Source: Larus michahellis (Eukaryota; Chordata; Aves; Charadriiformes; Laridae). From it: DNA of 64,000 nt. The stretch's first letter is position 1. Each line of letters starts with the position of its first letter. The stretch is taken from NCBI RefSeq assembly GCF_964199755.1, contig NC_133927.1, forward strand, positions 186,001-250,000. The letters run 5' to 3'. The notes beneath the pieces are model-generated. The model saw only the letters and a program-made list of their open reading frames with translations. It ran no database searches and was not told where the DNA came from. Made by a program: the position numbers and the translations under genes. This document shows, piece by piece, positions 8,751-64,000 of the stretch.

Positions 8751-10062
8751 TAAGAGTTGGTCCCCTTCCTCTCCTTCATTATAGGTTCTTTGTGTCAGAG
8801 CAGAGATGTGCTGGACCTCAGTCGTGGCACCAGGGCCAAGCTCAGGCGTGCAACAAAGCCAGCTGTTACCAAGTGCCCAAGTACCGTGCAGGCAAAAGGT
8901 TTGCGTCAGAGCATGCTGGGGGGGATGGCAGATGGCAATGTAAAGGGGAAAGGAGGAGATCAATCCCTGCTCTCCTCAGGACGAGAGAGAAGCAGGGCTG
9001 GACTCTGCAGCCCCAGCAGGAGAGGGCTTTGCTGTCTGCGGGGTCTCTGCAGCCCCAGAGGGCCTGTGGTGCAGGTGAAGCTGATCTCCAGGCAGGACAA
9101 GGGGCTTTTGCAAGTGTCCTTGGCTATGGGTATCCTGAGATCCAGGAACACTGTGCAAATCATTGCTCTGTTCCTTGACTGCATCATCAAAGGGATGACT
9201 GAGGGACGTGGGAGAAGCACTCCCTGCATCTACTGGATTGAGATGGGACAGCACTTGCCTCACTGCAGTTGCTTGAAGGAAAGCACTGAACGCCTCAGAA
9301 GGTCTCTTGGGGTCTCTTACACGGCTGCTCTGAATGGGGATGATGTTCGCGCAAGTCCTGTGCTGTCCCTGCCGGCTGCACGCAGTTGTGCTGGAGAGCC
9401 CTGGCACCTCAGGCAGCTCCACAGGATGGAGTTAACCTTGAAATTGGGCAGCTGCCCTGAATTAGGTTGGGCATTGTAGGGGTGCCAGTGAGAACCCAGC
9501 CCTAACTGCCAATGGAGATCTGGTAAAGACAGCTGGTGGAGAAGAGAGAGAGACGTAGCTCTTCAGATGGCAATGACTCCATTTGCTCAGAGGAATAGCT
9601 CTATAGGCTGCCCTGTACATAGTGAGCAGGAACAGGCTTCATTGTCCTAAAGGTGGCCATCTGCTGTCACTTCAGCTGCCCAAAGCAATGCCCCAAGAGC
9701 CTCCAAAATGATGGCCCCAGACGCTGCCCTGTCCCTCTGAACTGCTCCATCAAAGTTTAGAGATACCTGCACATGTCTCGGGCCACCTCTGGCACTTCGA
9801 ATGTGCACTGTGGTTTGCAGGGGTACAGGAGATTCCTCCCTTTCATTGTCTGGGTGTCCTGTCTCATAGGTGGAAAAGAAGAGGTCGTTCTGGGACCTAA
9901 CTCTGCCTCTGATAGGGGAAATGATACTGCCGGAAAGGAATGTCCCCCCCAACAGCTGAGGGAGGAAACATCAGTCATGACTTCAGCTTGTTTCACAGCA
10001 GGTTCCCCTGGAGCCTCAGGGACATCTTTGATGGAGCCACAGCGAGCCGAGAAAGTGCCACC
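8750..10062 (+). repeat. Duplication unit without its OR (blocks epsilon, delta, gamma)
   Basis: Epsilon (about 8750-9480), delta (about 9640-9860) and gamma (about 9890-10062) occur in the order and orientation expected upstream of an OR. At about 10062 gamma breaks off and continues straight into block eta ('ggtcagaagtcc'), which in copy 2 lies downstream of the receptor (27997). Blocks beta, alpha and the OR14-like gene are missing, which looks like one internal deletion. The right arm has the same junction at about 63970-64000. Confidence 0.6.
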
Positions 10063-10064
10063 TG

Positions 10065-10800
10065 ATTAGGTCAGAAGTCCTTGAGTGCATTGCATGGAGG
10101 AGACTCAAGCATGCACATCATGTGCATGTGGGGAGAGGAACCCGAGTTGAGCACAAGTGCCACCAGCTATTCCCAGAGCGTCCACGAAGGCCTGTGGGAC
10201 ACACTCTGTCTTCGGGTAACTTGACTTTGAGAGGAACGTCCTCTGGGAAACCACCTGGATGCCGCACTGGGATGTGCTTCCGTGAACCAGGGTCCCTATG
10301 TCCATACCTCATGCCATGAGGCATCTCAGATGGGCACCACACCACAGGGCTGAGGTGCCTCCCAGCATCTGGGAGTGGCAGCAGGAGGCCAGAGAGTCCC
10401 TACGCCTCTGCACGTGGAAGGGAAGGGCTCGCGGCTTTGAACACCCCTGTCAGAGCCCTGACAATTCTGCGTGTGACTTCAGGAACAACCCCACCGGCCC
10501 AATGAGAATTCTCTCACCTGCCTTTTCCGGTTCATCGCAAGTGCCTCTGTGTGCTGCCTCACCCTCCCCTGTCCTTATGGCCCATCCCTTGTTTCACACA
10601 GTCTGAAAGCAGCACGTCCACAGAGCATTTCGCCCGCGCAGTCCGAAAGGGTTCTGCAAGCAGGAGTGTCGCTGCCCTCCAGAAGATGGCTTTTCTCACC
10701 CTTCACACAGAACAGAGCACGTCTAGGGACTATGATGCACTCAGAAGCACAGACACCTCCGTGTTTCACCTCTCTGAACTTCCTTCCCAATGTCCTTAGG
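10065..10800 (+). repeat. Block eta of the OR-cluster unit (left arm)
   Basis: Paralogous to 27990-28700. Landmarks are 'gtgcatgtggggagaggaac', 'ctctgggaaaccacctggat' and 'tgccatgaggcatctcagat'. It leads into a decayed OR, as in the other copy. The overlapping frames (for example 10549-11184) stay open in both arms only because the arms are near-identical, so this is not evidence of coding. Confidence 0.6.
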
Positions 10801-10914
10801 CACCTAACAGAGAAACAAATGTTGTCACTCGAAGGCGTACCCACAAGGAGAGAGGGGACAGGAAGACCTAAAATTTTCCATGGAAAAAGGGGATCAGGAC
10901 AATTTGTCATCATC

Positions 10915-11600
10915 AATGGCGTTTCCCCTAATGGGAATGGGGAACGTCCCCAACCTTCAGAAAAATCTCTTCCTCCTCCCTCCCATGACCTGCCCCATAA
11001 TTGCACTTGGGAACAGCCTCAGCATGGGGCTGCTGGTGGAAAACCTGGAAACCTGCTACAGCTCCGCCACCCTGACTGTCCTCCCACTGGGCACAGCACC
11101 ATCTCTGCTCACAGCGCTCTTAGGGCTATTTCCTGCACCTTTGGCAGGTACAGAGTGGCTCCTGCTGGTGGCCACATGCTATGACCAGTACTTGGCTCTG
11201 TGCCACCCCCTGCTCTCTGCAAGACTCCTGAACTGGAAGGGTTGTCGCTAGAAGACAGCTGCACCTTGGCTGGGGGGATTTCTGTCATCTGCAGTAATCA
11301 TTTCCTTCTTGTCCCAGACACATTTGCTGGCCCTGATGTACTAGACCACTTTTGTGATTTTGCCCCAAGGCTGGAGCTCTCCTGCAGTGACACCATGACG
11401 CTCATGCTCTCAGCTTTGGAAACGTGCTGTTTAGATCCAGTCTTCCCCTTCCTGGTCACACCGGCATCTTGTGTGTGCATCAGAGCTTCCATGGCCACCA
11501 AATTAATTCGCATCAGGTGCAGGGATGCTTTACATGTGCCCTTATACAGCCCTGACCATATCAAGAATCCTTCAATACTCCTTCAGGAGTTTGTTTGATT
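10915..11600 (+). pseudogene. Decayed olfactory receptor of a non-OR14 subfamily (left arm)
   Basis: OR landmarks appear in order but split over two frames. The first holds a TM1 stretch with IALGNSLSMG, LETCYSSATL (TM2/loop) and VATCYDQYLALCHPL (the MAYDRY region). The second, from about 11215, holds DHFCDFAPRLELSCSDT (second extracellular loop) and FPFLVTPASCVCI (TM5). The two parts are joined by a frameshift between about 11215 and 11250, and the first frame stops at 11249-11251. Part of TM2 is missing and the sequence decays after TM5, with no recognisable TM6-TM7. The CDFAP and LSCSDT motifs differ from the OR14-like copies (CEIPQ, LSCS), so this is another OR subfamily. The inverted partner at 62441-63126 has the same lesions. 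Confidence 0.75.
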
Positions 11601-11639
11601 TCCCAAGGAGTATCAGTACCTATTAAAAAAAATATAAAC

Positions 11640-12815
11640 ATACATATGTCCAATGCAGCAGTCTGCATCTCTGTTAGAAGCCTTGAAGCAGTGTCCGGGG
11701 GAGCAGGGCTTGAGGTGTGAGCATCCCGTGAGTTGACGGATCCCCTTTCCCAGCAGATGGGGTCAGGGCTTGGCTGTCCTGCTTGGTGACACACATCGAG
11801 GGCTTTCACAACCACATGCCACGTTTGATTTTCCACCTCGAAGCAGCACCTCTGACTTCCTGCTTCACCAGCCTCCAAGGACTCTGGGAAACTCTTGGAG
11901 GTTTGCTGCTGACTTTTACTTGTCTTGAGGCTTGTTCAGTCTTTCAGGATCTGCAGTTCAGGCACTTGGCACCAGAGGGCTCATTAACATGCAAAACGCC
12001 CTAACAAGTCAAGTCTCTGGGCATAGTTTTCCTTAAAGTCTTCAATTCTCATGTGCTTAATTAGAGAAGTTTCAGGAATGTAATCAAAGTGAAATAATAT
12101 GATTACTAAACAACAAGAAGAAAGGGTTTCTTTTTTCTTTTTCCTACTTTATTTTTCTGCTTATACATGAATGGAAATCAGCAGTCTCTACATGATACTG
12201 ATCCTGAGCGTCTGCTAATGCAGCCTGAACAGATATGAAAATCAAGACCCTTTGTGTTCCACAACCTATGGCCAGTCTTCATCCTGCCCCCAACCCAGCA
12301 TTTCTCTCATCAGCCCCCTGGGACTTACAGCAGCCCTGTTCTAAATCTGAGCTTCCTCCACTGAAGCTGCGCGGTTCAGCCCATTGGCACCGGTTCCCAC
12401 CTGGGTTACTTGGAGAACGAGCAGCACACGGACACAGAAGGGTGTTTGTCACTTGCCAACAAATGGAAACAAAGGAATGCATAGTTCAGTAAAAAAATGA
12501 GACATTCCTCAGCAATGTGTAAAGTCCACATTACCCCCACCGAAATCTGCTTCCTACAGTGGCTACCCTTAGACCAACAGAAAACATAATTTTTGTTAAA
12601 TCACAGATCCCAAGACTTCCCAAAAGATTCCCTGTCCTGGACTTTCTTTCTTTGTCCATAATTGTTCTTTGCAGGCAGTGAGGCTTACACTCACGTCACG
12701 AGCTCCCTCGATTCGCAGAGAGAAGCAAAGAGACAAAGTAAATCAAATGGTCTTTTGAACACACAAATCTGCCTAAAGGGGGCCCTGAGCAGCAACAAGC
12801 TTTTGGACAAATCAT
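11640..12815. other. Arm-shared non-coding stretch; part paralogous to 21550-21990
   Basis: 11700-12100 resembles 21550-21990. Both contain 'agagggctcatta' and an AT-rich tail with 'gtcttcaattct'. 12100-12815 is shared only with the right arm (about 61230-61940). No gene is visible. The frame at 12235-12492 is short and its partner in the other arm differs in frame at the 5' end. Confidence 0.5.
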
Positions 12816-12817
12816 GG

Positions 12818-13597
12818 AATAACAGAATGATGGAATGTGTGGGGTTGGAAGGGACCTTTAAAGGTCATCTAGTCCAACCCCCTGCAGTAAGCGGGGACAC
12901 CGACAACTAGATCAGGTTGCTCAGAGGCTCATCAAACCTGGCCTTGAATGTCTCCAGGGATGGGGCCTCCAGCCCGTCTCTGGGCAACCTGTGCCACTGT
13001 CTCACCACCCTCAGTGGAAAGAACTTCTTCCTAAACTCTAATCTAAACCTGCCCTGCTCTAGTTTAAAACCATTGTCCCTCGTCCTAAGGCTACATGCCC
13101 TTGCAAACAGCCTTGCAACAGCTTTCTGACAGGGCCCCTTCAGGTACTGGAAGGCCACTATAAGGTCTCCCCGGAGCCTTCTCTTCTCCAGGCTGAACAA
13201 CCCCAACCTCTCTCAGCCTGTCTTCACAGGAGAGGTGCTCCAGCCCTCTGATCGTCTTCGTGGCCCTCCTCTGCACCCGCTCCAGCAGGTCCATGTCCTC
13301 CTTGTGCTGAGGGCTCCAGAGCTGGACACAGTACTCCAGGTGGGGTCTCACGAGAGCAGAGTAGAGGGGGAGAATCCCCTCTCTGGGTCTGCTGGCCATG
13401 CTTCTTTTGATGCAGCCCAGGACACGATTGGCCTTCTGGGCTGCAAGCACACATTGTTAGCTCATGTCCAGCTTTTCATCCACCAGGACCCCCAAGTCCT
13501 TTTCCACAGGGCTGCTCTCTATCAAGTCATCCCCCAGCCTGTATTGGTAACGAGGGTTGTCCTGACCCAAGTGTAGGACCTTGCACTTGGCCCACCT
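12818..13597 (-). mobile_element. 5'-truncated CR1 LINE (end of ORF2 and 3' tail)
   Basis: Translation gives [36 protein letters not shown], then [14 protein letters not shown] and RFRLEFRKKFFPLRVVRQW, the C-terminal CR1 ORF2 region (compare 35150-35540 in the intact copy). The 3' tail at about 12818-12900 contains 'ggggttggaagggacc' and 'aggtcatctagtccaacccc', typical of CR1. It is frameshifted near 13200. The right-arm copy lacks about 263 bp of it (roughly 13186-13450). Confidence 0.85.
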
Positions 13598-13606
13598 TGA
13601 TTGCCG

Positions 13607-14010
13607 TGTCCAGTTTTGCGCCCCTCACCATAAAAAAGACACTGAGGGGCTGGAGCAGGTCCAGAGAAGAGCAATGAAGCTGGGAGGAGTCTGGAGAACA
13701 AGTCTGATGAGGAGCAGCTGAGGGAGCTGGGGCTGTTTAGCCTGGAGAAAAGGAGGCTGAGGGGAGACCTTCTCGCTCTCTACAACTCCCTGAAAGGAGG
13801 GTGTACAGAGGCGGGGGTCGGTCTCTTCTCCCAAGAAACAAGCAATAGGAGAAGAGGAAATGGCCGCCAGTTGCCCCAGCAGAGGTTTAGACTGGATATT
13901 AGGAACAATCTTTCCCCTGAAAGGTTTTTCAAGCATTGGAACAAGCTGCACAGGGAAGTGGCTGAGGCACCATCCCTGGAGGTAATCAAAAGACGGGTAG
14001 ACAGAGCGAT
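13607..14010 (+). mobile_element. CR1 LINE fragment, opposed to the CR1 at 15945
   Basis: Encodes [13 protein letters not shown], [34 protein letters not shown] and a KRRVDRA end, from the CR1 ORF2 C-terminus. It has a small deletion near 13680 and is truncated at about 14008, where 'cgatggcacctctcgctcc' begins. It is nearly identical to, but in opposite orientation from, the CR1 at 15945-16440. Together they flank the segment that is inverted in the other arm. Confidence 0.85.
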
Positions 14011-14241
14011 GGCACCTCTCGCTCCAGAGGCACCCAGCTGCGGCCACCACAGCCAGTCTCCCAGCAAGCGGCTCTCGAGAGCAGACGCACATTGTTGCAT
14101 CGTCACGTTGCCGCGACACCGCACTGCACATCCTCATGTTGCCACGCCGCTGCCCGGCTGCTGCCCAGCCACCCCGGGGCCCACCTGGAGGCCCATCTGG
14201 ACACGCGTGTGGGCCACTCGCTCTCACTTTGGACAGTCAAA

Positions 14242-14555
14242 ATGTGGCTTGGACTCTAAAAATGACTGGCTGGATCCTAAAAATGCTTGTTTAGAGCTTG
14301 ACAATGGGTCTTTGAATCTTAAAATGGGCTTTGGAACTTCTAAATGAGGCTTTGTACCCTAAAAATGAAGCTTTGGGATCAAAACCATGATAATCTGGTC
14401 CCTAAAAGAGGGGGCTGGACCATAAAAATCAGGGTTTGGACATCCAAAATGCATCTTGGACCCTAAAACTGACTGGCTTAATCCTACAAATGCCTCTTTG
14501 GAGCCTGAAAAAGAGGCTTTGGAACCTACAAATGCGTTTTTGTACTCTTGAAAGG
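14242..14555 (+). repeat. Degenerate minisatellite, period about 20-22 bp
   Basis: About 14 imperfect copies of a unit near 'tttggaccctaaaaatgag' run head to tail. The inner segment's inversion places the second copy in the same orientation in the right arm (59625-59935). No coding function is apparent. Confidence 0.7.
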
Positions 14556-15000
14556 TGACATTACACACCACAACTGAGCGTGGAGTTTCCTCCCCAGCCC
14601 ACAGTGGGGTCGCCAATGTCCCCATGTCTCACTGTGACACGGAGGTGGACAAAATTGATGCTGCCATGGAACCAGCCCAGCAGGCGGCCGCTGTCCCCAC
14701 AGCCCTGGGCATAGGGCACCTGTGGGGACAGGGAGGGGGACGAGAGACCTGGAGGGACAGAGACAGGGCTGGGGACAGTGGTGTGGCCAGGACACCTGTG
14801 GGGACAGCGATGGGGACATGGCACCTACAGGGATGACACTGGGGTCAGGGATAGGGTCAGCTGCAGGTTGTACACCTGCCCCTCCTCTGCGCTCCCACAC
14901 GGGGAAGTCAGGGGGCTGAATGTGGCACGTGTGTCCCCCTCCCCGCAGTGTCCCCACACCCCAAGGTGCTCTCCCCATCTCCTCCCCGAGGAGCTGCATC
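14555..15000. other. GGGGACA-rich tract shared by both arms
   Basis: Repeats of 'ggggaca' and 'cctgtggggacag' dominate 14700-14870. On the minus strand, 'tgtccccacag' followed by GTGCCCTATGCCCAGGGC could be an acceptor with an exon, but I cannot support it. Similarity with the right arm ends at about 14988, after 'ccccatctcctc'. Confidence 0.4.
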
Positions 15001-15118
15001 TGTGTGTGTGGCATCTGTGCTGCTGTTGGCTCTCGGCCTGCTGGAGGAGGTCTTGCTCTTTTTGAAGAGCCTCCAGTCTTTCAATCCGCTGCTTGATCAC
15101 CGTGAGATGCCTGTCAAG
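15000..15118 (-). other. Candidate coiled-coil exon of an unidentified host gene
   Basis: On the minus strand, 'tttctcttgacag' ends at about 15116. An open frame follows, reading HLTVIKQRIERLEALQ and KEQDLLQQAESQQQ, with a heptad-like pattern typical of a coiled coil. Coding sequence bordered by a good acceptor suggests a host-gene exon, not a LINE or LTR. The downstream end is unclear. I do not recognise the gene. The right arm lacks this segment. Confidence 0.35.
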
Positions 15119-15406
15119 AGAAAGGAAGGCAGCTGAGAAGGAGCCGCTCTGTCCATCTGGGCCAGGCTGTTTTCCGCTCAGCCGCTCCCGTCATCCTGCT
15201 CCCAGCTGCTTTGCTCCAGGAGTCCCGGCAGCAGCTTCCAGCTGCCTGCCCAAGGCTCCAAAGACAGACTGTGCCAACGTGTTTGCATCCGGCACCGGCT
15301 CCTTCCACCGCCGGGCTTTGTCTGTTCATTGGGCCATGAGGCTCCAGGACTTCTCTTGGGGACCACGGGCCCCCTTCAAGAGCAAGCGTTACTTGGCCTT
15401 TTCTCA

Positions 15407-15551
15407 CCTCTGCTTCCTCCTCCTCTCTCCACCTGGCAAACTCTTTCTCTCCTCCTGCAGCAGCCACTCTCGCAGGCAAGAAACGTCAATCCTTCCCGGC
15501 AGTTCAGGGGCATCGTCTAATTTGGCCGGGTCTTGCCGGAGCTTTTTCTGA
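15407..15551 (-). pseudogene. Candidate exon of the same unidentified gene, apparently frameshifted
   Basis: The minus strand has acceptor 'ttacctttcag' before about 15551 and donor 'AGAG|gtgagaa' at about 15406, bounding about 145 bp. One frame reads KKLRQDPAKLDDAPELPG and CLREWLLQEE. The coiled-coil-like continuation EKEFARWREEEEAEV lies in another frame, as if two bases had been gained in the GAGGAGAGAAAG stretch. It is about 290 bp upstream, in transcript sense, of the candidate exon at 15000-15118. That fits two exons of one gene, possibly decayed. I recognise no family. Confidence 0.35.
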
Positions 15552-15559
15552 AAGGTAAC

Positions 15560-15945
15560 ACCGGTTTGGGGTTCACTGTTGCCTGGACAAGCGCTCACGC
15601 CCCTGCATGCTGAGGCGTCCCGCAGGCCCAGCCTAGCGACGAGGGCAGGAGAGAAATGCTTCCCTCGGGACCCCGCGTGCTTGCAGGTGACTTTTCTGCC
15701 CATGCCCACCCCGCTCTCTGCGCTAGCTCTGCTGGCGGCCCAGTCGTCCTTTCCCTGCCACACCACGCGTCCCAGCAGCGCAGCCCTCACTTCTGCATTG
15801 GGTGCCTCCCCTCCCCGAGATGCCGCAAGGGAAGCCCCAGCCCTCGGCACCGTGCCGCTGACCGGTGCCCACCAACACCCCGCTGTGTCTGCCTCCTCTC
15901 GCATGAACCATCATTAAACCAAAGGTCTCTCAGCACTCTGTCTAC
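15560..15945. other. Left-arm-only stretch, no gene recognised
   Basis: Part of about 1 kb (15000-15945) absent from the right arm. It is GC-rich with short frames on both strands and no repeat I can name. It may be intron or flank of the candidate gene at 15.0-15.55 kb. Confidence 0.35.
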
Positions 15946-16440
15946 CCGTCTTTTAATTACCTCCAGGGATGGTGCCTCAGCCACTTCCCTGTGCAGCCTG
16001 TTCCAATGCCTGAAAAACCTTTCAGGGGAAAGATTGTTCCTAATATCCAGTCTAAACCTCTGCTGGGGCAACTGGCGGCCGTTTCCTCTTCTCCTGTTGC
16101 TTGTTTCTTGGGAGAAGAGACCGACCCCCACCTCTGTACACCCTCCTTTCAGGGACTTGCAGAGAGCGAGAAGGTCTCCCCTCAGCCTCCTTTTCTCCAG
16201 GCTAAACAGCCCCAGCTCCCTCAGCTGCTCCTCATCAGACTTGTTCTCCAGACTCCTCACCAGCTTCATTGCTCTTCTCTGGACCTGCTCCAGCCCCTCA
16301 GTGTCTTTTTTGTGGTGGGGGGCGCAAAACTGGACACAGCACTCGAGCTGGGGCCTCACCAGTGCCCAGTACAGGGGGACGGTCACTTCTCTAGTCCTGC
16401 TGGCCACACTGTTCCTGATACAGGTCAGAACGCTGTTAGT
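15945..16440 (-). mobile_element. CR1 LINE fragment abutting the T/G-rich VNTR
   Basis: Minus-strand translation gives [82 protein letters not shown] and a [11 protein letters not shown] end. This is the ORF2 C-terminus of the same subfamily as 13607-14010. The 5' end stops at about 16440, where the VNTR starts. The 3' side continues as 'agagacctttggtttaatga', like a CR1 3' UTR. Confidence 0.85.
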
Positions 16441-16449
16441 CCCACCTGG

Positions 16450-18390
16450 CCTTGTGCCCCGGGATTCTGGGTTGGTTGGGTTGGAGTTTGGGGTGGATTT
16501 TGGGTTTTTTGATTTGGCTTTTGGATTGGATGCTGAGTTTCCTGGACTGGATTCTTTTTGTTGGATCTTTCCTGTTGGATTTTTGGGGTTGTTTTTTTCA
16601 TTTATTTAAGTTGTTTTTTGGGGTTCACGTTTTGGGGTTGGATTTTGGGTTTGATTATGGGTTGGTTGGTTGGAATTTTGGGTTGGATTGGATTTTTACC
16701 CCTTGGTGGGCGTGTCAGGCAGCCATTGTGACATGAGGGCGGCAGGGCCAGCGCTGAGTGTCTGGCAGTGGTGGCATGGCAACCGCTGATGTGCTGCCCG
16801 CAGTGGTGGGGCTGCCATCGGCAGGGACATGTTCAAGCAGGTCAGGTTCCTCCAACGCCGTCCAAGCTGGCCTTGACCCCTGGGATTTTGGGTTAGTTGG
16901 GTTGGATGTTGGGGTGGATTTTGTTTTGTTGGGTTTGGATCTTGGATTGGATTTTGGATTTTTTTGGGTTGGATGTTTGGGGTTGGATTTTTTTGGGTGG
17001 ATTTGTTTTTATTTCAGTTAGATTTTGGGTTGGATTTTGGTTTTTTGGGTTGGATTTTTGGGGTTGGACTTTTTGGATTGGAATTTTGTGGTTGGTTGGG
17101 TTGAATTTTGGGTTCTTTTTTGGGGGTATTGGGTTGTTTGGAGTTGTGTTTTGGACTTTTTTGGGTTCAATTTTTTGGGTTGGGTTTTGGGGTTGGGTTT
17201 TTTGCGTTTGATTTTTACCCCTGCATGGGTGTGTCAGGCAGCCATTGTGACATGAGGGCGGCAGGGCCAGCGCTGATTGTCTGGCGGTGGTGGCATGGCA
17301 ACCGCTGATGTGCTGCCCGCAGTGGTGGGGCTGCCATGAGAAGGGATGTGTTCAAGCAGGTCAGGTTCTTCCAATGCCGTCCAACTGGGCCTTGACCCCT
17401 GGGATTTTGGGGCGGTTGGGTTGGATTTGGGTTGAGTTGTTTTTTTAGGGTTGGATTTTTTGGGTTGTATTTTTTGCCTGTATTGTTGTTTTTCGAGTTG
17501 GATTTTGGATTTTTGGCATTGGTTTTTTGGAGTTGGTTGGGTTGAATTTTGGGTTGGGTTTTTTGGTGTTGTGGTTTTTTCATGTTGCTTTTTTTGCTTT
17601 TGGGTGTTTTGATTTTGGGTTTGTTCAGGTTGGGTTTTCGATTATTTTGGGTTTGATTTTTTTGGGTTGCATTTTAGGTTTTTTTTTTTTATTTAGTTTT
17701 TGGCCTTGATTTTTCCCTTTTCGCGGGCGTGTCAGGCAGCCATTGTGACATTGCGGCGGCAGGGCCAGCGCTGATTGTCTGGCAGTGGTGGCATGGCAAC
17801 TGCTGATGTGCTGCCCACAGTGGTGGGGCCGCCATCGGCAGGGACATCTTCAAGTAGGTCAGGTTTCTCCAACCCCAACAGACCTGGCCTTGAGCCCTGG
17901 GATTTTGGGTCGGTTGGGTTGGAAGTTGGGGTGGGGGTTTTTTTAATGGTTGGATTTTGGCTTGGATTTTGGAATTTTTGGGCTTTGCTTTTTTTGGCTT
18001 GGATTTTTTGAGGTGGATTTTATGTTTTTTGAGTGATATTTTTGGGTTGGATTTTGGGTTTTTCAGGTTGGATTTTTGGGGTTTGGTTTTTGGGGTTGGA
18101 TTTTTTGGATTGGATTTTTTGGGTTGGTTGGGTTGAATTTTGGGTTGGGTTTTTTTGATTGGGTTTTTTGGGATTGGGTTTTCGGGGGTTCGGTTTATGT
18201 TTTTTTGATTAGATTTTGGTTTTGGGGACTGGATTTTTGGGGTTGGGCTTTTTGAACCCTGGGATTTCTAGTTGTTTGGAGTGGATTTTGGGGTGTTTTG
18301 GGTTGGTATTTTTTTGTGTTGGGGGTTTTTGTTGTTGGGTTTTTCTTTTTGGGCTAGATTTGTTGGGGTTGGATTTTTGGACTAGGCTGT
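16450..18390 (+). repeat. Composite VNTR: TTGGGTTGGATTTT tract with three GC-rich blocks
   Basis: A strongly strand-asymmetric tract is built from variants of 'ttgggttggattttggg' on the plus strand. GC-rich blocks of about 190 bp containing 'gtgtcaggcagccattgtga' interrupt it at about 16700-16890, 17218-17405 and 17715-17905. The 'gtgtcaggc' landmarks are 519 and 498 bp apart, so the higher-order period is about 500 bp. The long Gly/Trp/Phe- or Pro/Lys/Asn-rich open frames on both strands are artefacts of the repeat. G-runs separated by T make G-quadruplex formation plausible. The right arm has only one GC block. Confidence 0.85.
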
Positions 18391-18419
18391 CCCCAGGGCC
18401 CTCCATCCCCCATGCGTTT

Positions 18420-20060
18420 AAACTTGGCTGTCTGATACCAACCAAATCCCTTTGATTTGGCTGAAAATAAAAGTATTCCAGTGCTTGACAAACCTTTCAG
18501 TGAAGAAATGTTTTTCCTACTATCCAATCTAAACCTTCCCTGGTACAACTCCTGGCCATTTCCTCTTGTCATGTAACTCGTTACTTGGGAGAAGACACCA
18601 GCAGCCACCTCGCCACTTCCAAGCCTGTAGTGTTGCATTGGGTTTTTGTGACCCAAGTGTAGGACCTGGCACTTGGCTTTGTTGAACCTCAGGCCACTGG
18701 CCTCTGCCCATCGATCCAGCCTGTCCAGATCCCTCTGCAAAACCTTTCTACCCTCAAGCAGGTCGACACTGCCAACCAACTTGGTGTTGTCTGCAAACTT
18801 ATTGAGGGTGCACTCGATCCCCTCATCCAGATCATTGATAAAGACCTTAAAAGGAACTGGCCCCAATTGTAGGCCCTGGGGAAAACCACTTGTGACCAGC
18901 TGCCACCTGCATTAAACTTTGTTCACCACCACTTTGGCCACTCTTTGGCTCAGCCATCCAGCCAGGTTTTCACCTGGCATAGAGTACTCCCGTCCAAGCC
19001 ACAGGCAGCCAGTTTCTCAGGGAGAATGCTTTGGGAAATGCTGTCAAAGGCTTTTCTAAAGTCCAGGTAAAGAACATCCACAGCCTTTCCCTCATCCACT
19101 GAGTGGGTCACCTTCTCATAGAAGGAGATCAGGTTTGTCAAGCAGGACCTGACTTTCATGAACCCATGCTGACGGGGCCTGATCACCTGGTTGTCCTCAT
19201 GTGCCACATGATGGCACTCAGGATGATCTGTTCCATGATCTTCCCCAGCACCGAGGTCAGACTGACAGGGCGGTAGTTCCCAGGATCCTCCTTCTGGCCG
19301 TTTATGTTGATGGGCGTCACCTTTACTAACCTCCACTTAACTGGCACCTCCCCGCTTTGCCAGGACTGCTGATAAATGATGGAAAGCGGCTTGGTGAGCA
19401 TCTCCGACAGCTCCCTCAGTACCTGTGGGTGGAACCCATCTGGCCCCATAGATTTGTGTATGTCTAAGTGCTGTAGCAGGTCCCTCACTATTCCCTTTGG
19501 ATTATGGGGGCTTCATGCTGCTCCCCATCCCTGTCTTCCCGCTCAGGGGCTGAGTACCCAGAGAACTGCTGGTCTTACTAGTAAAGACGGAGGCAAAGAA
19601 GGTATTAAGTACCTCAGCCTTTTCCTCATCCTTTGTCACTATGTTTTCCGCCATATCCAATAAAGGATGGGGATTCTCCTTAGCTCTCTTTGTGTTTCTA
19701 ATGTAATCACAGAAACATGTTTTAGTGTCTGTTATGACATTAGCCAGGTAAAGACCTAGTTGGGCATTGGCCTTTCTAATTTTTTCCCTGCATAACCTCA
19801 CAACATCCTTGTAGTTCTCCTGAGTTGCGTGCCCCTTCTTCAAAATGTCATAATCTCCTTTTTTCCCCTGAGTTTGAGACAAAGCTCTCTGTTTGACCAG
19901 GCCAGTCTTCTTTGTCAGCTTGGTTTTAGGCACGTGGGGATGGCCTGATCCTGCGCCTTTTAAAATTCCTTCTTGAAAAACGTCCTGCCTTCCTGGACTT
20001 CTTTTGCCCTTCAGGACTGCCTCCCAGGGGACTCTGTCAACCAGGCCTCTCAAAAGGGCA
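18420..20060 (-). mobile_element. CR1 LINE ORF2 fragment, several frameshifts
   Basis: In element order on the minus strand: [136 protein letters not shown] and KFADNTKL. The RT motif C is FADN, not FADD, so it is catalytically dead as well as frameshifted. The inverted partner lies at 56239-57860. It differs from the intact element at 32600 and belongs to another or older CR1 subfamily. Confidence 0.9.
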
Positions 20061-22870: not shown

Positions 22871-23049
22871 CCTGGAGACTTCTTCGTGTTCCTGTTTAAG
22901 ACTTGTTCTACCAAGGCCTGGGAGACCTCACTGGTGGTAACTGAGGCAGAGAGGACATTGAATATCTCGGATCTACCTACTCCTACTCCTACTAAATTCA
23001 GCACTGGTCCTACATTATTCCCTTTAATTCGTTTAACTGTTCCTGAATT

Positions 23050-26146: not shown

Positions 26147-26178
26147 TTGGACAAGGCCCCCATGCCAAGAAAGAGCAA
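26110..26178 (+). other. Predicted acceptor, leader and out-of-frame ATG of OR copy 2
   Basis: A polypyrimidine stretch of T-runs ends in 'ggacaag', with AG at 26154-26155. A 23-nt leader then runs to the ATG at 26179. An upstream ATG at 26162, out of frame with the receptor, opens a frame of about 210 codons overlapping the coding region. Copies 3 and 4 have an equivalent upstream ATG; copy 1 does not. Confidence 0.55.
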
Positions 26179-51894: not shown

Positions 51895-51950
51895 TTGGTG
51901 CCTACGGGCATGGCTGACCATTGAAAGAGGAGAAGACATTGACAAGTTAC
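51895..51950 (-). other. Predicted acceptor, leader and out-of-frame ATG of OR copy 4
   Basis: On the minus strand 'cttctcctctttcaatggtcag' ends with AG at 51915-51914, giving a 19-nt leader to the ATG at 51894. An upstream ATG at 51911 is out of frame with the receptor and opens about 229 codons overlapping it, like copies 2 and 3. Confidence 0.6.
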
Positions 51951-55490: not shown

Positions 55491-56238
55491 CCTTTGGGTT
55501 CTTCCCCTCTTTTGTGTTGCTTTTTAAATCTTCTTTTGTTTTTCCCCCTCACAGCCAGAATGTTTTACCAAAACTGGTTTTCAGCGAGAAAGTGGTCAGT
55601 GACTGACGACCTTTCCCTCCTCCCTGTCTTGCTTACCTTTACTTCCCACGTTTCCTCATTTGTCACTATCTCCATGCCACTTTCTCCACTTTCTGAGGTG
55701 TTTTCTCTTCCAATAGAATTCCTCTTAGCGTATCCTAAATGATGTATTTAAATAAGACTAGAGGAAGAACTAGAGGAAAAAGACTAGCTTGAGAAACACC
55801 AATTGTGGTCTCCATTTACTGTAAAGGGACTCTTGGGTAAAGAGCGCATGTGCAATAACTTACCTACTGTTTCTAGTGAAGTCCTACTCTAACTCCCTTA
55901 ATAACTTTGTTCTTTGTACATCAAAGGATGTCTTCTTGCTCTCAGATGATTCTCCTCTCCATTCTGTTTTCCTTCCAGCCTGTGCCCGAATGTCCCCATG
56001 AACCTCTTTTCTCGTCCTTCTACACTCTTTCACTCTCTCTCATCTTCTTTTAAGCTCCTGAAGCATTGTTTCCTCTACTGACCATCTGACATTACTCACT
56101 GCAGCTTGGATGCAAACTATTGAACCATACCAGTGTCACGGAGTCCCTTCTTTTGGGCTTCCCCTCCCTCCACCATCAGGAGGTGCCTAATGGCAATAAC
56201 TCTCTGGGCTTTGGACCTGCTTATCTTAGTTTGCCCTT

Positions 56239-57860
56239 TTGAGAGGCCTGGTTGACAGAGTCCCCTGGGAGGCAGTCCTGAAGGGCAAAAGAAGTCCAGG
56301 AAGGCAGGACGTTTTTCAAGAAGGAACTTTTAAAGGCGCAGGATCAGGCCATCCCCATGTGCCTAAACACAAGCTGGTGGGGAAGAAGACTGGCCTGGCC
56401 GAACAGAGAGCTTTGTCTCAAACGCAGGGGAAAAAAGGAGATTATGACATTTTGAAGAAGGGGGAGGCAACTCAGGAGGAGTACAAGGATGTTGTGAGGT
56501 TATGCAGGGAAAAAATTAGAAAGGCCAATGCCCAACTAGGTCTTTACCTGGCTAATGTCATAACAGACACTAAAACATGTTTCTATGATTACATTAGAAA
56601 CACAAAGAGAGCTAAGGAGAATCCCCATCCTTTATTGGATATGGCGGAAAACATAGTGACAAAGGATGAGGAAAAGGCTGAGGTACTTAATACCTTCTTT
56701 GCCTCCGTCTTTACTAGTAAGACCAGCAGTTCTCTGGGTACTCAGCCCCTGAGCGGGAAGACAGGGATGGGGAGCAGCATGAAGCCCCCATAATCCAAAG
56801 GGAATAGCGAGGGACCTGCTACAGCACTTAGACATACACAAATCTATGGGGCCAGATGGGTTCCACCCACAGGTACTGAGGGAGCTGTCGGAGATGCTCA
56901 CCAAGCCGCTTTCCATCATTTATCAGCAGTCCTGGCAAAGCGGGGAGGTGCCAGTTAAGTGGAGGTTAGTAAAGGTGACGCCCATCAACATAAACGGCCA
57001 GAAGGAGGATCCTGGGAAGTACAGGCCTGTCAGTCTGACCTCGGTGTGGGGAAGATCATGGAACAGATCATCCTGAGTGCCATCATGTGGCACATGAGGA
57101 CAACCAGGTGATCAGGCCCCGTCAGCATGGGTTCATGAAAGTCAGGTCCTGCTTGACAAACCTGATCTCCTTCTATGAGAAGGTGACCCACTCAGTGGAT
57201 GAGGGAAAGGCTGTGGATGTTCTTTACCTGGACTTTAGAAAAGCCTTTGACAGCATTTCCCAAAGCATTCTCCCTGAGAAACTGGCTGCCCATGGCTTGG
57301 ACGGGAGTACTCTATGCCAGGTGAAAACCTGGCTGGATGGCTGAGCCAAAGAGTGGCCAAAGTGGTGGTGAACAAAGTTTAATGCAGGTGGCAGCTGGTC
57401 ACAAGTGGTTTTCCCCAGGGCCTACAACTGGGGCCAGTTCCTTTTAATGTCTTTATCAATGATCTGGATGAGGGGATCGAGTGCACCCTCAATAAGTTTG
57501 CAGACAACACCAAGTTGGTTGGCAGTGTCGACCTGCTTGAGGGTAGAAAGGCTTTGCAGAGGGATCTGGACAGGCTGGATCGATGGGCAGAGGCCAGTGG
57601 TCTGAGGTTCAACACAGCCAAGTGCCAGGTCCTACACTTGGGTCACAAAAACCCAATGCAGCACTACAGGCTTGGAAGTGGCGAGGTGGCTGTTGGTGTC
57701 TTCTCCCAAGTAATGAGTTACATGACAAGAGGAAATGGCCAGGAGTTGTGCCAGAGAAGATTTAGATTGGATAGTAGGAAAAACATTTCTTCACTGAAAG
57801 GTTTGTCAAGCACTGGAATACTTTTATTTTCAGCCAAATCAAAGGGATTTGGTTGGTATC
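56239..57860 (+). mobile_element. CR1 LINE ORF2 fragment, partner of 18420-20060
   Basis: It reads the same series as the left-arm partner: RGLVDRVPWEAVLKGK, EYKDVVRLCREKIRKANAQL, AEVLNTFFASVF, MGPDGFHPQVLRELSE, RQHGFMKVRSCLTNLISFY, LDFRKAFDSISQSIL and a FADN-type motif C. About ten residue differences occur over the first 184 aa. The lesions are shared, so the copy was dead before the arms duplicated. Confidence 0.9.
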
Positions 57861-57899
57861 AGACAGGCAAGTTTAAACGCATGGGGGATGGAGGGCCCT

Positions 57900-58865
57900 G
57901 GGGACAGCCCAGTCCAAAAATCCAACCCCAAAAAATCTAGCCCAAAAAGAAAAACCCAACAACAAAAACCCCCAACACAAAAAAAAAACAACCCAAAACA
58001 CCCCAAAATCCACTCCAAACAACTAAAAATCCCAGGGTTCAAAAAGCCCAACCCCAAAAATCCAGTCCCCAAAACCAAAATGTAATCAAAAAACCATAAA
58101 CCGAACCCCCAAAAACCCAATCCCAAAAAACCCAAACAAAAAAACCCAACCCAAAATTCAACCCAAACAACCCGAAAAATCCAACCTGAAAAATCCAACC
58201 CGAAAAATCCAACGTGAAAAATCAAACCCCAAAAATCAAACCCCAAAAATCCAACCTGAAAAACCCAAAATGCAACCCAAAATATCACTCAAAAAACATA
58301 AAATCCACCCCAAAAAATCCAAGCCCAAAAATTCCAAGCCAAAAAAGGTAAAGCCCAAAAATTCCAAAATCCAAGCCAAAATCCAACCATTAAAAAAAAC
58401 CCCACTCCAACTTCAAACCCAACCGACCCAAAATCCCAGGGCTCAAGGCCAGCTTGGACGGCGTTGGAGGAACCTGACCTGCTTGAACATGTCCCTGCCG
58501 ATGGCAGCCCCACCACTGCGGGCAGCACATCAGCGGTTGCCATGCCACCACCGCCAGACACTCAGCGCTGGCCCTGCCGCCCTCATGTCACAATGGCTGA
58601 CTGACACGCCCATGCAGGGGTAAAAATCCAATCCAACCCAAAATTCCAACCAACCAACCCATAATTAAACCCAAAATCCAACCCCAAAACGTGAACCCCA
58701 AAAAACAACTTAAATAAATGAAAAAAACAACCCCAAAAATCCAACAGGAAAGATCCAACAAAAAGAATCCAGTCCAGGAAACTCAACATCCAATCCAAAA
58801 GCCAAATCCAAAAACCCCAAATCCACCCCAAACTCCAACCCAACCAACCCAGAATCCCGGGGCAC
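57900..58865 (-). repeat. Composite VNTR, right-arm version with one GC-rich block
   Basis: C/A-rich on the plus strand ('aaaatccaacccaaaattcc'), the reverse complement of 16450-18390. Only one GC-rich block is present (about 58430-58620), against three on the left. Its two sides match the outermost parts of the left tract, so the difference is a loss or gain of two units of about 500 bp. Confidence 0.85.
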
Positions 58866-58879
58866 AAGGCCAGGTTGGA

Positions 58880-59390
58880 CTAACAGCGTTCTGACCTGTA
58901 TCAGGAACAGTGTGGCCAGCAGGACTAGAGAAGTGACCGTCCCCCTGTACTGGGCACTGGTGAGGCCCCAGCTCGAGTGCTGTGTCCAGTTTTGCGCCCC
59001 TCACCACAAAAAAGACACTGAGGGGCTGGAGCAGGTCCAGAGAAGAGCAATGAAGCTGGTGAGGAGTCTGGAGAACAAGTCTGATGAGGAGCAGCTGAGG
59101 GAGCTGGGGCTGTTTAGCCTGGAGAAAAGGAGGCTGAGGGGAGACCTTCTCGCTCTCTGCAACTCCCTGAAAGGAGGGTGTACAGAGGTGGGGGTCGGTC
59201 TCTTCTCCCAAGAAACAAGCAATAGGAGAAGAGGAAACAGCCGCAAGATGCCCCAGCAGAGGTTTAGACTGGATATTAGGAACAATCTTTCCCCTGAAAG
59301 GTTTTTCAGGCATTGGAACAGGCTGCACAGGGAAGTGGCTGAGGCACCATCCCTGGAGGTAATTAAAAGACGGGTAGACAGAGCGATGGC
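58880..59390 (+). mobile_element. Hybrid CR1 fragment at an inversion breakpoint
   Basis: It encodes [17 protein letters not shown] through KRRVDRA, the same ORF2 part as the left CR1s. Its 5' side joins the VNTR, as the left minus-strand CR1 at 16440 does. Its 3' side joins 'cgatggcacctctcgctcc', as the left plus-strand CR1 at 14008 does. It thus combines the flanks of two different left-arm CR1s. Confidence 0.8.
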
Positions 59391-59624
59391 ACCTCTCGCT
59401 CCAGAGGCACCCAGCTGCGGCCACCACAGCCAGTCTCCCAGCAAGTGGCTCTAGAGAGCAGACGCACATTGTTGCATCGTCACGTTGCCGCGACACCGCA
59501 CTGCACATCGTCATGTTGCCACGCCGCTGCCCGGCTGCTGCCCAGCCACCCCGGGGCCCACCTGGAGGCCCATCTGGACACGCGTGTGGGCCACTCGCTC
59601 TCGCTTGGGACAGTCAAGATGTGG

Positions 59625-59935
59625 CTTGGACTCTAAAAATGACTGGCTGGATCCTAAAAATGCTTGTTTAGAGCTTGACAATGGGTCTTTGAATCTTAAA
59701 ATGGGCGTTGGAACTTGTAAATGAGGGTTTGTACCTAAAAATGAGGCTTTGGGTTCAAAAGCATGATAATTTGGTCCCTAAAAGAGGAGTTTGGACCATA
59801 AAAATGAGGGTTTTGACATCCAAGATGCATCTTGGACCCTAAAACTGACTGGCTTAATCTTAAAAATGCCTTTTTGGAGCCTGAAATAGAAGCTTTGGAA
59901 ACAAAAAATGCGTTTTTGTGCTCTTGAAAGGAGAC
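59625..59935 (+). repeat. Degenerate minisatellite, right-arm copy
   Basis: Same units of about 20-22 bp as 14242-14555 and in the same, not inverted, orientation, because the enclosing segment is inverted relative to the rest of the arm. Confidence 0.7.
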
Positions 59936-60384
59936 TTTACAAAACACAACTGAGCCTGGGGGGACTAAACTCATGCTGCCATGGAACCAGCCCAGCAGGC
60001 GGCCGCTGTCCCCACAGCCCTGGGCATAGGGCACCTGTGGGGACAGGGAGGGGGACAAGAGACCTGGAGGGACAGAGACAGGGCTGGGGACAGTGGTGTG
60101 GCCAGGACACCTGTGGGGACAGCGATGGGGACATGGCACCTACAGGGATGACACTGGGGTCAGGGATAGGGTCAGCTGCAGGTTGTACACCTGCCCCTCC
60201 TCTGCGCTCCCACACGGGGAAGTCAGGGGGCTGAATCTGGCACGTGTGTCCCCCTCCCCGCAGTGTCCCCACACCCCAAGGTGCTCTCCCCATCTCCTCA
60301 GTGTCCCCCCCAAACCTGTGAGCAGCAGAAGGGTCCACGTCACCTCCGTGCTGGTGACGACCGCCTGTCTGACGTGGAGGGAGG
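59936..60384. other. GGGGACA-rich tract and rearrangement junction
   Basis: 59940-60298 parallels 14560-14988 in direct orientation, with about 65 bp of 14580-14660 missing. From about 60299 to 60384 the sequence ('gtgtcccccccaaacctgtg' onward) has no counterpart in the left arm. Then a CR1 fragment begins abruptly. Confidence 0.55.
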
Positions 60385-60720
60385 AGGGGAAAGATTGTTC
60401 CTAATATCCAGTCTAAACCTCTGCTGGGGCATCTTGCGGCCGTTTCCTCTTCTCCTGTTGCTTGTTTCTTGGGAGAAGAGACCGACCCCCACCTCTGTAC
60501 ACCCTCCTTTCAGGGAGTTGTAGAGAGCGAGAAGGTCTCCCCTCAGCCTCCTTTTCTCCAGGCTAAACAGCCCCAGCTCCCTCAGCTGCTCCTCATCAGA
60601 CTTGTTCTCCAGACTCCTCACCAGCTTCACTGCTCTTCTCTGGACCTGCTCCAGCCCCTCAATGTCTTCTTTGTGGTGAGGGGCGCAAAACTGGACACGG
60701 CAATCAAGGTGGGCCAAGTG
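60385..60720 (-). mobile_element. CR1 fragment truncated at the inversion/deletion junction
   Basis: The minus strand reads [37 protein letters not shown] and [12 protein letters not shown], then stops at about 60385, within the codons after NNLSP. The left CR1s continue there to KRRVDRA. Its 5' side ('ggcaatcaaggtgggccaag') matches the flank of the left plus-strand CR1 at 13600. Confidence 0.8.
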
Positions 60721-61215
60721 CAAGGTCCTACACTTGGGTCAGGGCAACCCTCGTTACCAATACAGGCTGGGGGATGACTTGATAGAGAGCAGCCCTGTGG
60801 AAAAGGACTTGGGGGTCCTGGTGGATGAAAAGCTGGACATGAGCTAACAATGTGCTCATATAAGGCTCCGGGGAGACTTTATAGCGGCCTTCCAGTACCT
60901 GAAGGGGCCCTGTCAGAAAGCTGTTGCAAGGCTGTTTGCAAGCGCATGTAGCCTTAGGACGAGGGACAATGGTTTTAAACTAGAGCAGGGCAGGTTTAGA
61001 TTAGAGTTTAGGAAGAAGTTCTTTCCACTGAGGGTGGTGAGACAGTGGCACAGGTTGCCCAGAGACGGGCTGGAGGCCCCATCCCTGGAGACATTCAAGG
61101 CCAGGTTTGATGAGCCTCTGAGCAACCTGATCTAGTTGTCGGTGTCCCTGCTTACTGCAGGGGGTTGGACTAGATGACCTTTCAAGGTCCCTTCCAACCC
61201 CACACATTCCATCAT
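60712..61215 (+). mobile_element. CR1 fragment with 263-bp internal deletion, partner of 12818-13597
   Basis: It reads from 'ggtcctacacttgggtcagg' to the CR1 3' tail ('aaggtcccttccaaccccac'). At about 60853-60862 it jumps from the part just before [11 protein letters not shown] to just before GSGETL-like sequence, omitting what the left arm has at about 13186-13450. The change in paired-coordinate sum (74042 to 74304) gives the deletion size. Confidence 0.8.
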
Positions 61216-62440
61216 TCTGTTATTCCATGATTTGTCCAAAAGCTTGTTGCTGCTCAGGGCCCCCTTTAGGCAGATTTGTGTGTTCAAAAGACCATTTGAT
61301 TTACTTTGTCTCTTTGCTTCTCTCTGTGAATCGAGGGAGCTCGTGACGTGAGTGTAAGCCTCACTGCGTGCAAAGAACAATTATGGACAAAGAAAGAAAG
61401 TCCAGGACAGGGAATCTTTTGGGAAGTCTTGGGATCTGTGATTTAACAAAAATTATGTTTTCTGTTGGTCTAAGGGTAGCCACTGTAGGAAGCAGATTTC
61501 GGTGGGGGTAATGTGGACTTTACACATTGCTGAGGAACGTCTCATTTTTTTACTGAACTATGCATTCCTTTGTTTCCATTTGTTGGCAAGTGATAAACAC
61601 CCTTCTGTGTCCGTGTGCTGCTCGTTCTCCAAGTAACCCAGGTGGGAACCGGTGCCAATGGGCTGAACCGCGCAGCTTCAGTGGAGGAAGCTCAGATTTG
61701 AACAGGGCTGCTGTAAGTCCCAGGGGGCTGATGAGAGAAATGCTGGGTTGGGGGCAGGATGAAGACTGGCCATAGGTTGTGGAACACAAAGGGTCTTGAT
61801 TTTCATATCTGTTCAGGCTGCATTAGCAGACGCTCAGGATCAGTATCATGTAGAGACTGCTGATTTCCATTCATGTATAAGCAGAAAAATAAAGTAGGAA
61901 AAAGAAAAAAGAAACCCTTTCTTCTTGTTGTTTAGTAATCATATTATTTCACTTTGATTACATTCCTGAAACTTCTCTAATTAAGCACATGAGAATTGAA
62001 GACTTTAAGGAAAACTATGCCCAGAGACTTGACTTGTTAGGGCGTTTTGCATGTTAATGAGCCCTCTGGTGCCAAGTGCCTGAACTGCAGATCCTGAAAG
62101 ACTGAACAAGCCTCAAGACAAGTAAAAGTCAGCAGCAAACCTCCAAGAGTTTCCCAGAGTCCTTGGAGGCTGGTGAAGCAGGAAGTCAGAGGTGCTGCTT
62201 CGAGGTGGAAAATCAAACGTGGCATGTGGTTGTGAAAGCCCTCGATGTGTGTCACCAAGCAGGACAGCCAAGCCCTGACCCCATCTGCTGGGAAAGGGGA
62301 TCCGTCAACTCACGGGATGCTCACACCTCAAGCCCTGCTCCCCCGGACACTGCTTCAAGGCTTCTAACAGAGATGCAGACTGCTGCATTGGACATATGTA
62401 TGTTTATATTTTTTTTAATAGGTACTGATACTCCTTGGGA
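61216..62440. other. Arm-shared non-coding stretch (partner of 11600-12815)
   Basis: Reverse complement of the left arm with scattered substitutions and one or two single-base indels. No gene seen. Confidence 0.5.
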
Positions 62441-63126
62441 AATCAAACAAACTCCTGAAGGAGTATTGAAGGATTCTTGATATGGTCAGGGCTGTATAAG
62501 GGCACATGTAAAGCATCCCTGCACCTGATGCGAATTAATTCGGTGGCCATGGAAGCTCTGATGCACACACAAGATGCCGGTGTGACCAGGAAGGGGAAGA
62601 CTGGATCTAAACAGCACGTTTCCAAAGCTGAGAGCATGAGCGTCATGGTGTCACTGCAGGAGAGCTCCAGCCTTGGGGCAAAATCACAAAAGTGGTCTAG
62701 TACATCAGGGCCAGCCAATGTATGTGGGACAAGAAGGAAATGATTACTGCAGATGACAGAAATCCCCCCAGCCAAGGTGCAGCTGTCTTCTAGCGACAAC
62801 CCTTCCAGTTCAGGAGTCTTGCAGAGAGCAGGGGGTGGCACAGAGCCAAGTACTGGTCATAGCATGTGGCCACCAGCAGGAGCCACTCTGTACCTGCCAA
62901 AGGTGCAGGAAATAGCCCTAAGAGCGCTGTGAGCAGAGATGGTGCTGTGCCCAGTGGGAGGACAGTCAGGGTGGCGGAGCTGTAGCAGGTTTCCAGGTTT
63001 TCCACCAGCAGCCCCATGCTGAGGCTGTTCCCAACTGCAATTATGGGGCAGGTCATGGGAGGGAGGAGGAAGAGATTTTTCTGAAGGTTGGGGACGTTCC
63101 CCATTCCCATTAGGGGAAACTCCACT
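62441..63126 (-). pseudogene. Decayed olfactory receptor of a non-OR14 subfamily (right arm)
   Basis: Inverted partner of 10915-11600 with the same split frames: VATCYDQYLALCHPL in one and DHFCDFAPRLELSCSDT plus FPFLVTPASCVCI in the other. The frameshift and stop are at the equivalent place (62790-62792). Only a few substitutions separate the copies (for example Asp to His and Phe to Leu near VPDTFAG, read VPHTLAG here). The gene was dead before the arms formed. Confidence 0.75.
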
Positions 63127-63240
63127 GATGATGACAAATTGTCCTAATCCCCTTTTGCCATGGAAAATTTTAGGTCTTCCTGTCCCCTCTCTCCTTGTGG
63201 GTACGCCTTCGAGTGACAACATTTGTTTCTCTGTTAGGTG

Positions 63241-64000
63241 CCTAAGGACATTGGGAAGGAAGTTCAGAGAGGTGAAACACGGAGGTGTCTGTGCTTCTGA
63301 GTGCATCATAGTCCCTAGACGTGCTCTGTTCTGTGTGAAGGGTGAGAAAAGCCATCTTCTGGAGGGCAGTGACACTCCTGCTTGCAGAACCCTTTCGGAC
63401 TGCGCGGGCGAAGTGCTCTGTGGACGTGCTGCTTTCAGACTGTGTGAAACAAGGGATGGGCCATAAGGACAGGGGAGGGTGAGGCAGCACACAGAGGCAC
63501 TTGCGATGAACCGGAAAAGGCAGGTGAGAGAAATCTCATTGGGCCGGTGGGGTTGTTCCTGAAGTCACACGCAGAATTGTCAGGGCTCTGACAGGGGTGT
63601 TCAAAGCCGCGAGCCCTTCCCTTCCACGTGCAGAGGCGTAGGGACTCTCTGGCCTCCTGCTGCCACTCCCAGATGCTGGGAGGCACCTCAGCCCTGTGGT
63701 GTGGTGCCCATCTGAGATGCCTCATGGCACGAGGTATGGACATAGGGACCCTGGTTCACGGAAGCACATCCCAGTGCGGCATCCAGGTGGTTTCCCAGAG
63801 GGCGTTCCTCTCAAAGTCAAGTTACCCGAAGACAGAGTGTGTCCCACGGGCCTTCGTGGACGCTCTGGGAATAGCTGGTGGCACTTGTGCTCAACTCGGG
63901 TTCCTCTCCCCACATGCACATGATGTGCATGCTTGAGTCTCCTCCATGCAATGCACTCAAGGACTTCTGACCTCATCAGGTGGCACTTTCTCGGCTCGCT
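63241..64000 (-). repeat. Block eta, right-arm copy, and truncated block gamma at window end
   Basis: Reverse complement of 10041-10800, including the gamma-eta junction near 63970. The arm continues beyond the window. Confidence 0.6.

Follow-up and report, generated by a model that had tools for sequence, protein, structure and literature searches.

Olfactory receptor (OR) genes of the avian group gamma-c form large species-specific sets of very similar sequences, mostly unplaced in older genome assemblies, for which independent expansion and/or concerted evolution has been proposed (PMC2758906); for avian ORs, duplication and/or gene conversion has been proposed as well (PMC6969042). The stretch considered here comprises 64,000 bases of the Larus michahellis genome (C36:186001-250000, C36 being contig NC_133927.1; “the window”, to which coordinates without a contig name refer) and contains OR genes lying between the arms of a large inverted repeat. 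It likely belongs, with a probability of roughly 80%, to a multi-megabase OR array built as a mosaic of segmental duplications, the inverted repeat of the window being one opposite pair among dozens of copies. The array comprises contig C550 (2,629,000 bases, listed ORs spanning 319 to 2624 kb) together with C36 (315,000 bases), out of a genome of 1,405,500,149 bases in 616 contigs. Its receptors are presumably of the gamma-c type; the label OR14 is that of the original prediction for this DNA. The locus is akin to the avian gamma-c (OR14-like) expansions in its large set of very similar ORs, but here the physical array is visible, with its mosaic of duplicons, mixed strands, and flank switching at OR exons.

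Two human systems are close in other respects. The OR clusters at 8p23 and 4p16 hold OR-rich repeats acting as recombination substrates, with inversion between the clusters (PMC8954119) spanning several megabases (PMC2790694), and interlocus gene conversion between ORs located in segmental duplications has been described for OR2T3/OR2T34 (PMC4467073). OR-rich recombination substrates are common to 8p23/4p16 and the gull array, but the former display an inversion polymorphism between clusters, whereas here the rearrangement lies inside an array and is seen in one assembly. Exchange among OR paralogues is likewise shared with OR2T3/OR2T34; here, however, the flanks of a single exon come from different duplicon classes, so that kilobases are joined. 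Another known form of long inverted repeat around a spacer is the sex-chromosome palindrome. A palindrome with arm-to-arm conversion is hallmarked by collinear arms that are mutual nearest relatives and by a spacer occurring in both orientations between the same arms; a segmental-duplication mosaic, by multi-copy segments of at least 1 kb and at least 90% identity, with recombinant junctions inside the shared homology. A sex-chromosome palindrome has been exemplified in willow (PMC7023750). The window resembles such palindromes in its long inverted repeats and spacer, but its arms are not each other’s closest relatives. No bird OR array of inverted duplicons and no flank switching at an OR exon were found in the titles and abstract openings of the best-matching open-licence papers.

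The left arm (6412..20425, plus strand) consists of joined duplicons: a core (9203..13180, plus), a small flippable module, a minisatellite, and a CR1 fragment. The right arm (55688..64000, minus) extends past the window to C36:253630, equivalent to window position 67630. A 360-base piece of the arm (10041-10400) gave 134 candidate matches in the genome, of which the best 40 were scored: 35 on C550, four on C36, and a partial one on C40, a contig which also has a listed OR. The copies occur in both orientations; 39 of them (those on C36 and C550, one covering 248 of the 360 bases) were used further. Orientation switches in 15 of the 37 neighbouring pairs listed (13/34 on C550 and 2/3 on C36). 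A search with an OR protein behaved similarly: among the best 125 of 809 candidates, 105 on C36 and C550 were used (20 on other contigs were dropped), and the strand changes between listed neighbours in 45/93 cases on C550 and 6/10 on C36. Since arm pieces and ORs switch strand so frequently, inverted neighbours are usual in this array. Overall, 42,982 of the window's 64,000 bases are covered by a further copy (at least 500 bp and at least 95% identity) within the 260 kb of C36 that was fetched (36,493 in direct and 33,393 in inverted orientation, as overlapping sets), and segments of at least 1 kb and at least 90% identity recur in several copies, as in segmental duplications. Inverted pairs of the arm piece spaced by 7-8 kb are also seen on C550, at 458982/467270, 2206348/2214632, and 2395138/2402547.

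The original prediction attributed the repeat to a single inverted duplication or to arms kept alike by mutual conversion. Both would make the arms closest relatives, and both are contradicted by the left arm’s closer relationship with a direct copy. The longest match of the left arm on C36 is direct, pairing 1..13180 (plus) with C36:140077-153241, 46 kb upstream, at 99.22%. This segment includes an OR copy (3279..4193, minus) with one in-frame stop, lacking in the direct copy at C36:143341. The alignment of the core yields 2697 columns free of gaps, in which the left arm shows 8 differences to the direct copy, 20 to the right arm, 25 to C36:72660, and 19, 20, 23, 25, and 32 to five C550 copies; the matrix omits a sixth copy from C550 (L004), which was aligned but matched only in part. 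The right arm is, in other words, about as distant from the left arm as the C550 copies are. In the core tree, the left arm groups with the direct copy (ultrafast bootstrap 80); elsewhere, the nodes receive 35-46, except for one C550 pair at 99, and the position of the right arm is not fixed.

A comparison by 200-bp tiles within the same 260 kb gave a similar picture. For 71 left-arm tiles, the right arm was the best match in 7, tied in 15, and was beaten in 49, five tiles having no right-arm match; for 60 right-arm tiles, the left arm was best in 4, tied in 26, and was beaten in 30. Such wins are lowered because one arm faces several copies at once, a bias from which the pairwise core counts are free. 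The core has 34 informative sites, and 274 of the 561 pairs they form are incompatible; compatibility is higher between neighbours than when the order is permuted (p 0.034; p 0.016 for the 24 non-CpG sites). A mosaic signal of this kind is expected if the copies exchange sequence, although the p values are modest.

The inverted similarity itself is real, and chance is excluded by its length and identity. In the self-comparison of the window, 60862-64000 pairs with 13180-10041 over 3140 columns at 99.17%, with a coordinate sum of 74042, which confirms the predicted inverted match, but the arms are not collinear throughout. Inward of 13180/60862, the match continues in pieces of 91-98%, the last 0.3 kb at 83%, and ends at 20425/55688. 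When the neighbouring C36 sequence is included, the outer match becomes 6412-13180 against C36:253630-246862 (98.97%), so the outer 6.8 kb of the arms are about 99% alike and the parts further in 83-98%. The arm length predicted earlier was limited at the outside by the edge of the window: position 64000 is not the end of the repeat, as the match runs to the equivalent of 67630, paired with 6412. Hence, the recurrence announced for 10041-20800 and 55494-64000 stands as 6412-20425 against 55688-67630, but not as a discrete pair, since it belongs to a family of at least 39 copies.

The arm-to-arm alignment, which had been proposed as a check, confirmed the inverted match and revealed gaps, an internal direct segment, and a missing segment. 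No close partner of 13181-13449 was found in the right arm by self-comparison, and neither self-comparison nor tiles yielded a right-arm match for about 15018-15936. The stretch 13591-14984 stands in direct orientation to 58967-60299 despite the inverted cores, and arm-to-arm identity falls to 67-92% in the minisatellite tiles (16.75-18.25 kb). An identical run of 841 bp between the arms would fit conversion, but parts of it are equally shared with the direct copy C36:140077-153241. The arms differ at about 0.9% of sites, in addition to the rearrangements, in agreement with the earlier view of them as separate recent copies with structural differences. The minisatellite (16462..18385, plus; right-arm counterpart 58098-58689) is G/T-rich and degenerate, with TTGGGTTGGATTTT-like units; this type is present in both arms and varies in length and sequence among copies.

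The internal direct segment belongs to a small module of the T-S-T type. In the left arm, two copies of a CR1-related inverted repeat T (13591..14006, plus, and 15936..16352, minus; 96.4% alike) enclose an inner segment S (13919..14984, plus), which is direct relative to the right arm’s S though the cores are inverted, and a segment U (15018..15936, plus), the one without a right-arm match; at C36:61.6-63.9k and 108.3-110.6k, U is likewise joined to T and the minisatellite. The right-arm module (58967..60713, plus) matches C36:153390-155135 in the plus direction at 97.6%, whereas its flanks 58088-59295 (89%) and 60385-61200 (98%) align with that locus in the minus direction; it is, therefore, flipped relative to both of its own flanks. 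The overlaps at the module edges are 0.33-kb inverted CR1-related repeats, and the inverted segment measures 1.1 kb, both flanks being collinear. The segment has one and the same orientation with respect to the core at C36:153k, at C36:69.5-71.6k, and in the left arm; at C36:116.5-118.8k, the segment and minisatellite have the relative orientation of the right arm, with no core beside them. This 1.1-kb inversion is the clearest sign that inverted repeats here flip the DNA between them.

On a larger scale, flipping of the 34.7-kb spacer, as originally suggested, is not demonstrated, and the principle was borne out for the 1.1-kb segment only. The spacer block 44000-45000 has 99% copies at three places on C550, a partial copy (98%) at a fourth, and one of 97% on C471. 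At C550:1275-1308 kb, the listed blocks run as in the window at 20.5-55.1 kb (B, OR, F, OR, G, OR, H); arm blocks are first listed about 28 and 43 kb away, both in the same orientation. Spacer blocks without H also stand between same-orientation arm blocks at C550 1105-1165 kb and 730-800 kb; in the latter, neither F nor a second plus-type OR is among the matches listed, being absent or merely unlisted. Thus, in each of the three C550 places where spacer block G occurs, the closest arm blocks listed to its left and right point the same way rather than in opposite directions. The block order around these places was compared for a flip of the whole spacer, but their flanks are too different to call. 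The block map includes five matches (C36/C550) of the 234 for block 44000-45000; of the further listings, 38 of the best 40 (from 97 candidates) and 11 of 34 matches were used. From a listing of the best 40 of 727 candidates, 33 entered the strand and early flank counts and 19 (at least 97%) the block map; the seven dropped rows include one on C550 at 87%. Within the block, 44435-44677 shares 67-78% similarity with a large satellite-like tandem array on C17 (about 512-701 kb).

The OR genes of the array also point to exchange. All three predicted intact genes between the arms (26179..27192, plus; 40998..41930, plus; 50977..51939, minus) have full-length open frames with Pfam 7tm_4 and 7tm_1 matches, as expected of the OR family. 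In 12 OR genes on C36 (shorter or split matches being left out), the coding exons agree at 89.6-99.9%, whereas the adjoining 300 bases of 5′ flank form groups that mostly cannot be aligned with one another. Exceptions across groups are 75515, which aligns with class Q (81-83%), and 226980, which aligns with class R (76%); in the final tens of bases ahead of the start codon, read by eye, some likeness is kept around an acceptor-like CAG. Individual pairs show the decoupling in both directions. Between the gene at 13022 and that at 212161 (window gene 26179), the 5′ flanks agree to 90% in the 300 bases next to the exon and to 98-99% further out (300-1200 bases upstream), yet the 4-fold sites are only 91% alike; in 24704 and 212161, the 5′ flanks are unalignable, the first 300 bases of the 3′ flanks are identical, and the 4-fold sites are 94% alike. 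Selection on the protein does not readily account for such contrasts at synonymous sites.

With two classes of 5′ flank (P, Q) and two of 3′ flank (p, q), 44 of the 105 listed ORs could be classed on both sides, and all four combinations occur: Pp 12, Pq 15, Qp 2, and Qq 15 (association p 0.04). For the remaining 61, a class is lacking on one side or on both, for which the restriction of the flank lists to best matches is at least part of the reason. Of these lists, one had 41 rows (20 used, 21 on C554 dropped), another the best 40 of 165 candidates (all used), a third 35 rows (32 used), and a fourth 40 rows (25 used); the 15 dropped from the last include eight partial or diverged C36/C550 rows, two of which, at 94-95%, adjoin class P genes. 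The count uses the nearer q query; an earlier one with a farther query likewise gave all four combinations. The further OR contig C554, possibly a sister array, has class Q-like 5′ flanks (92-97%) and p-like 3′ flanks (87%).

Window gene 26179, with a class P 5′ flank (20829..26178, plus) and a class q 3′ flank (27193..31062, plus), is itself recombinant. Site by site, it follows P at 169/200 sites in the 400 bases before the start codon, is mixed in the first 300 exon bases, and then follows Q at 27/28 exon sites and 75/75 downstream sites. Reciprocally, C36:51567 follows Q upstream (200/200) and over most of the exon, then P from the last part of the exon and downstream (73/75). Two more Pq genes and one more Qp gene from C550 show the same switching pattern, so the switch was read in five genes (two Qp, three Pq), all with open frames. 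Recombinant junctions, including reciprocal types, therefore lie inside shared homology.

The ends of duplicons are also unevenly distributed. The self-matches of C36 (at least 1.5 kb and 95%) have ends that fall into 121 clusters, of which 14 lie in OR exons against 6.7 expected from shifting (p 0.007) and 37 in CR1 against 21.1 expected (p 0.0004); both are over-represented, though most ends are elsewhere. The spacer also harbors a near-complete CR1 LINE (31063..35711, plus) with a ATTCTATG tail, this kind of octamer being a mark of CR1. Its open ORF2 (32600-35611, plus) encodes an endonuclease and a reverse transcriptase according to Pfam; an upstream open frame (32028-32594, plus) has no Pfam match. 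A relative at 96% lies at C36:254954-257837. Three C36 paralogues of the 5′-side flank end exactly at 31062, which would suit a simple insertion of the CR1 after duplication, but no match to the sequence 3′ of the CR1 was found directly behind them on C36. As to other features, no tRNA and no Rfam match at gathering score were found in the window.

How these observations bear on other explanations can be weighed as follows. A true palindrome, i.e., one recent inverted duplication with arm-to-arm gene conversion and a spacer free to invert, would agree with arms 99% alike over 6.8 kb and with their 841-bp identical run. At the same time, the left arm is nearer to the direct copy (8 versus 20 differences), the right arm is the sole best C36 match for merely 7 of its 71 tiles, the arm block exists in at least 39 copies, and the three places with block G have same-orientation arm blocks as nearest listed neighbours; we consider this explanation very improbable. 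Its version with private arm-to-arm conversion was rejected on the nearest-relative tests of core counts and tiles. Still less credible is an arm core inserting by itself as a mobile element: many dispersed copies in both orientations would suit it, but 39 of the 40 scored copies are confined to C36 and C550, the partial fortieth lies on C40, a contig with a listed OR, and the copies end variably in different neighbours (1-13180, 6412-13180, 9203-14984) without fixed ends.

An assembly artefact, in which haplotypes or repeat copies were misjoined in C36, deserves more attention, although it too is unlikely. Assembling numerous copies of about 99% identity is difficult, and C36 (315 kb) stands as a contig separate from C550. 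Furthermore, at C550 2.00-2.17 Mb, several listed OR and block positions recur at a shift of 84,988-84,989 bases, which may represent a very recent tandem duplication or an assembly duplication. Against the artefact, the arms are about 0.9% apart and structurally different, so accurate long reads could tell them apart, and the arm block occurs at least 35 times on C550 in both orientations. A head-to-head join of haplotypes, the alternative raised originally, is hence unlikely as a general cause, the block being listed 35 times on another contig of 2.63 Mb, but a local misjoin in C36 may have occurred. Judged by eye, nowhere among the 35 arm blocks listed on C550 do the order and spacing of the four on C36 recur, whichever way they are read; C36 is, therefore, no obvious allelic counterpart of part of C550.

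The segmental-duplication mosaic accommodates what was directly observed: high copy number, mixed orientation, decoupled flanks of OR exons, and a small inversion bounded by CR1-related inverted repeats. Such an array would grow and reshuffle by non-allelic recombination and conversion. Part of the homology would be supplied by the OR coding exons (about 0.9 kb, about 90-95% alike even between units with mostly unalignable 5′ flanks), and part, likewise, by CR1-related repeats. Exchange between copies in the same orientation would duplicate or delete units, and that between opposite copies would produce inversions; the palindrome of the window would be a by-product needing no arm-specific upkeep.

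Several points weigh against this reading or narrow it. As many as 70 of the 121 duplicon ends lie outside both OR exons and CR1, so other joints matter more in number, and the CR1 excess is inflated because CR1 copies match each other. The switch pattern is almost identical between the two Qp genes, and likewise between two of the three Pq genes; some recombinants are, therefore, probably copies of one event, and the recombinant types may represent few events later multiplied by duplication. The Qp type is rare (2/44), and gene 123863 has a P flank upstream and a mostly Q exon but belongs to neither class downstream. The four flank combinations cannot separate crossing over from long conversion tracts. 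Finally, the evidence comes from one assembly, and the whole-genome counts are counts of matches listed.

The inverted pair is, thus, ordinary; it is the array that is unusual, with exons and flanks having separate histories over megabases. A more speculative possibility, which we put forward only tentatively, is that the OR coding exon serves as an exchangeable cassette: recurrent recombination would swap receptors among unrelated 5′ flanks, which probably comprise the promoter and an upstream exon, reassigning receptors to regulatory units while orientation is scrambled. A caution also follows for similar loci: where a palindrome appears in one window of a repeat array, the whole array should be compared before a special mechanism is proposed. 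PMC2758906 left open the choice between independent expansion and within-species homogenisation of avian gamma-c ORs. An array in which exons and flanks have different histories lets the two processes be separated directly, and both seem to occur here.

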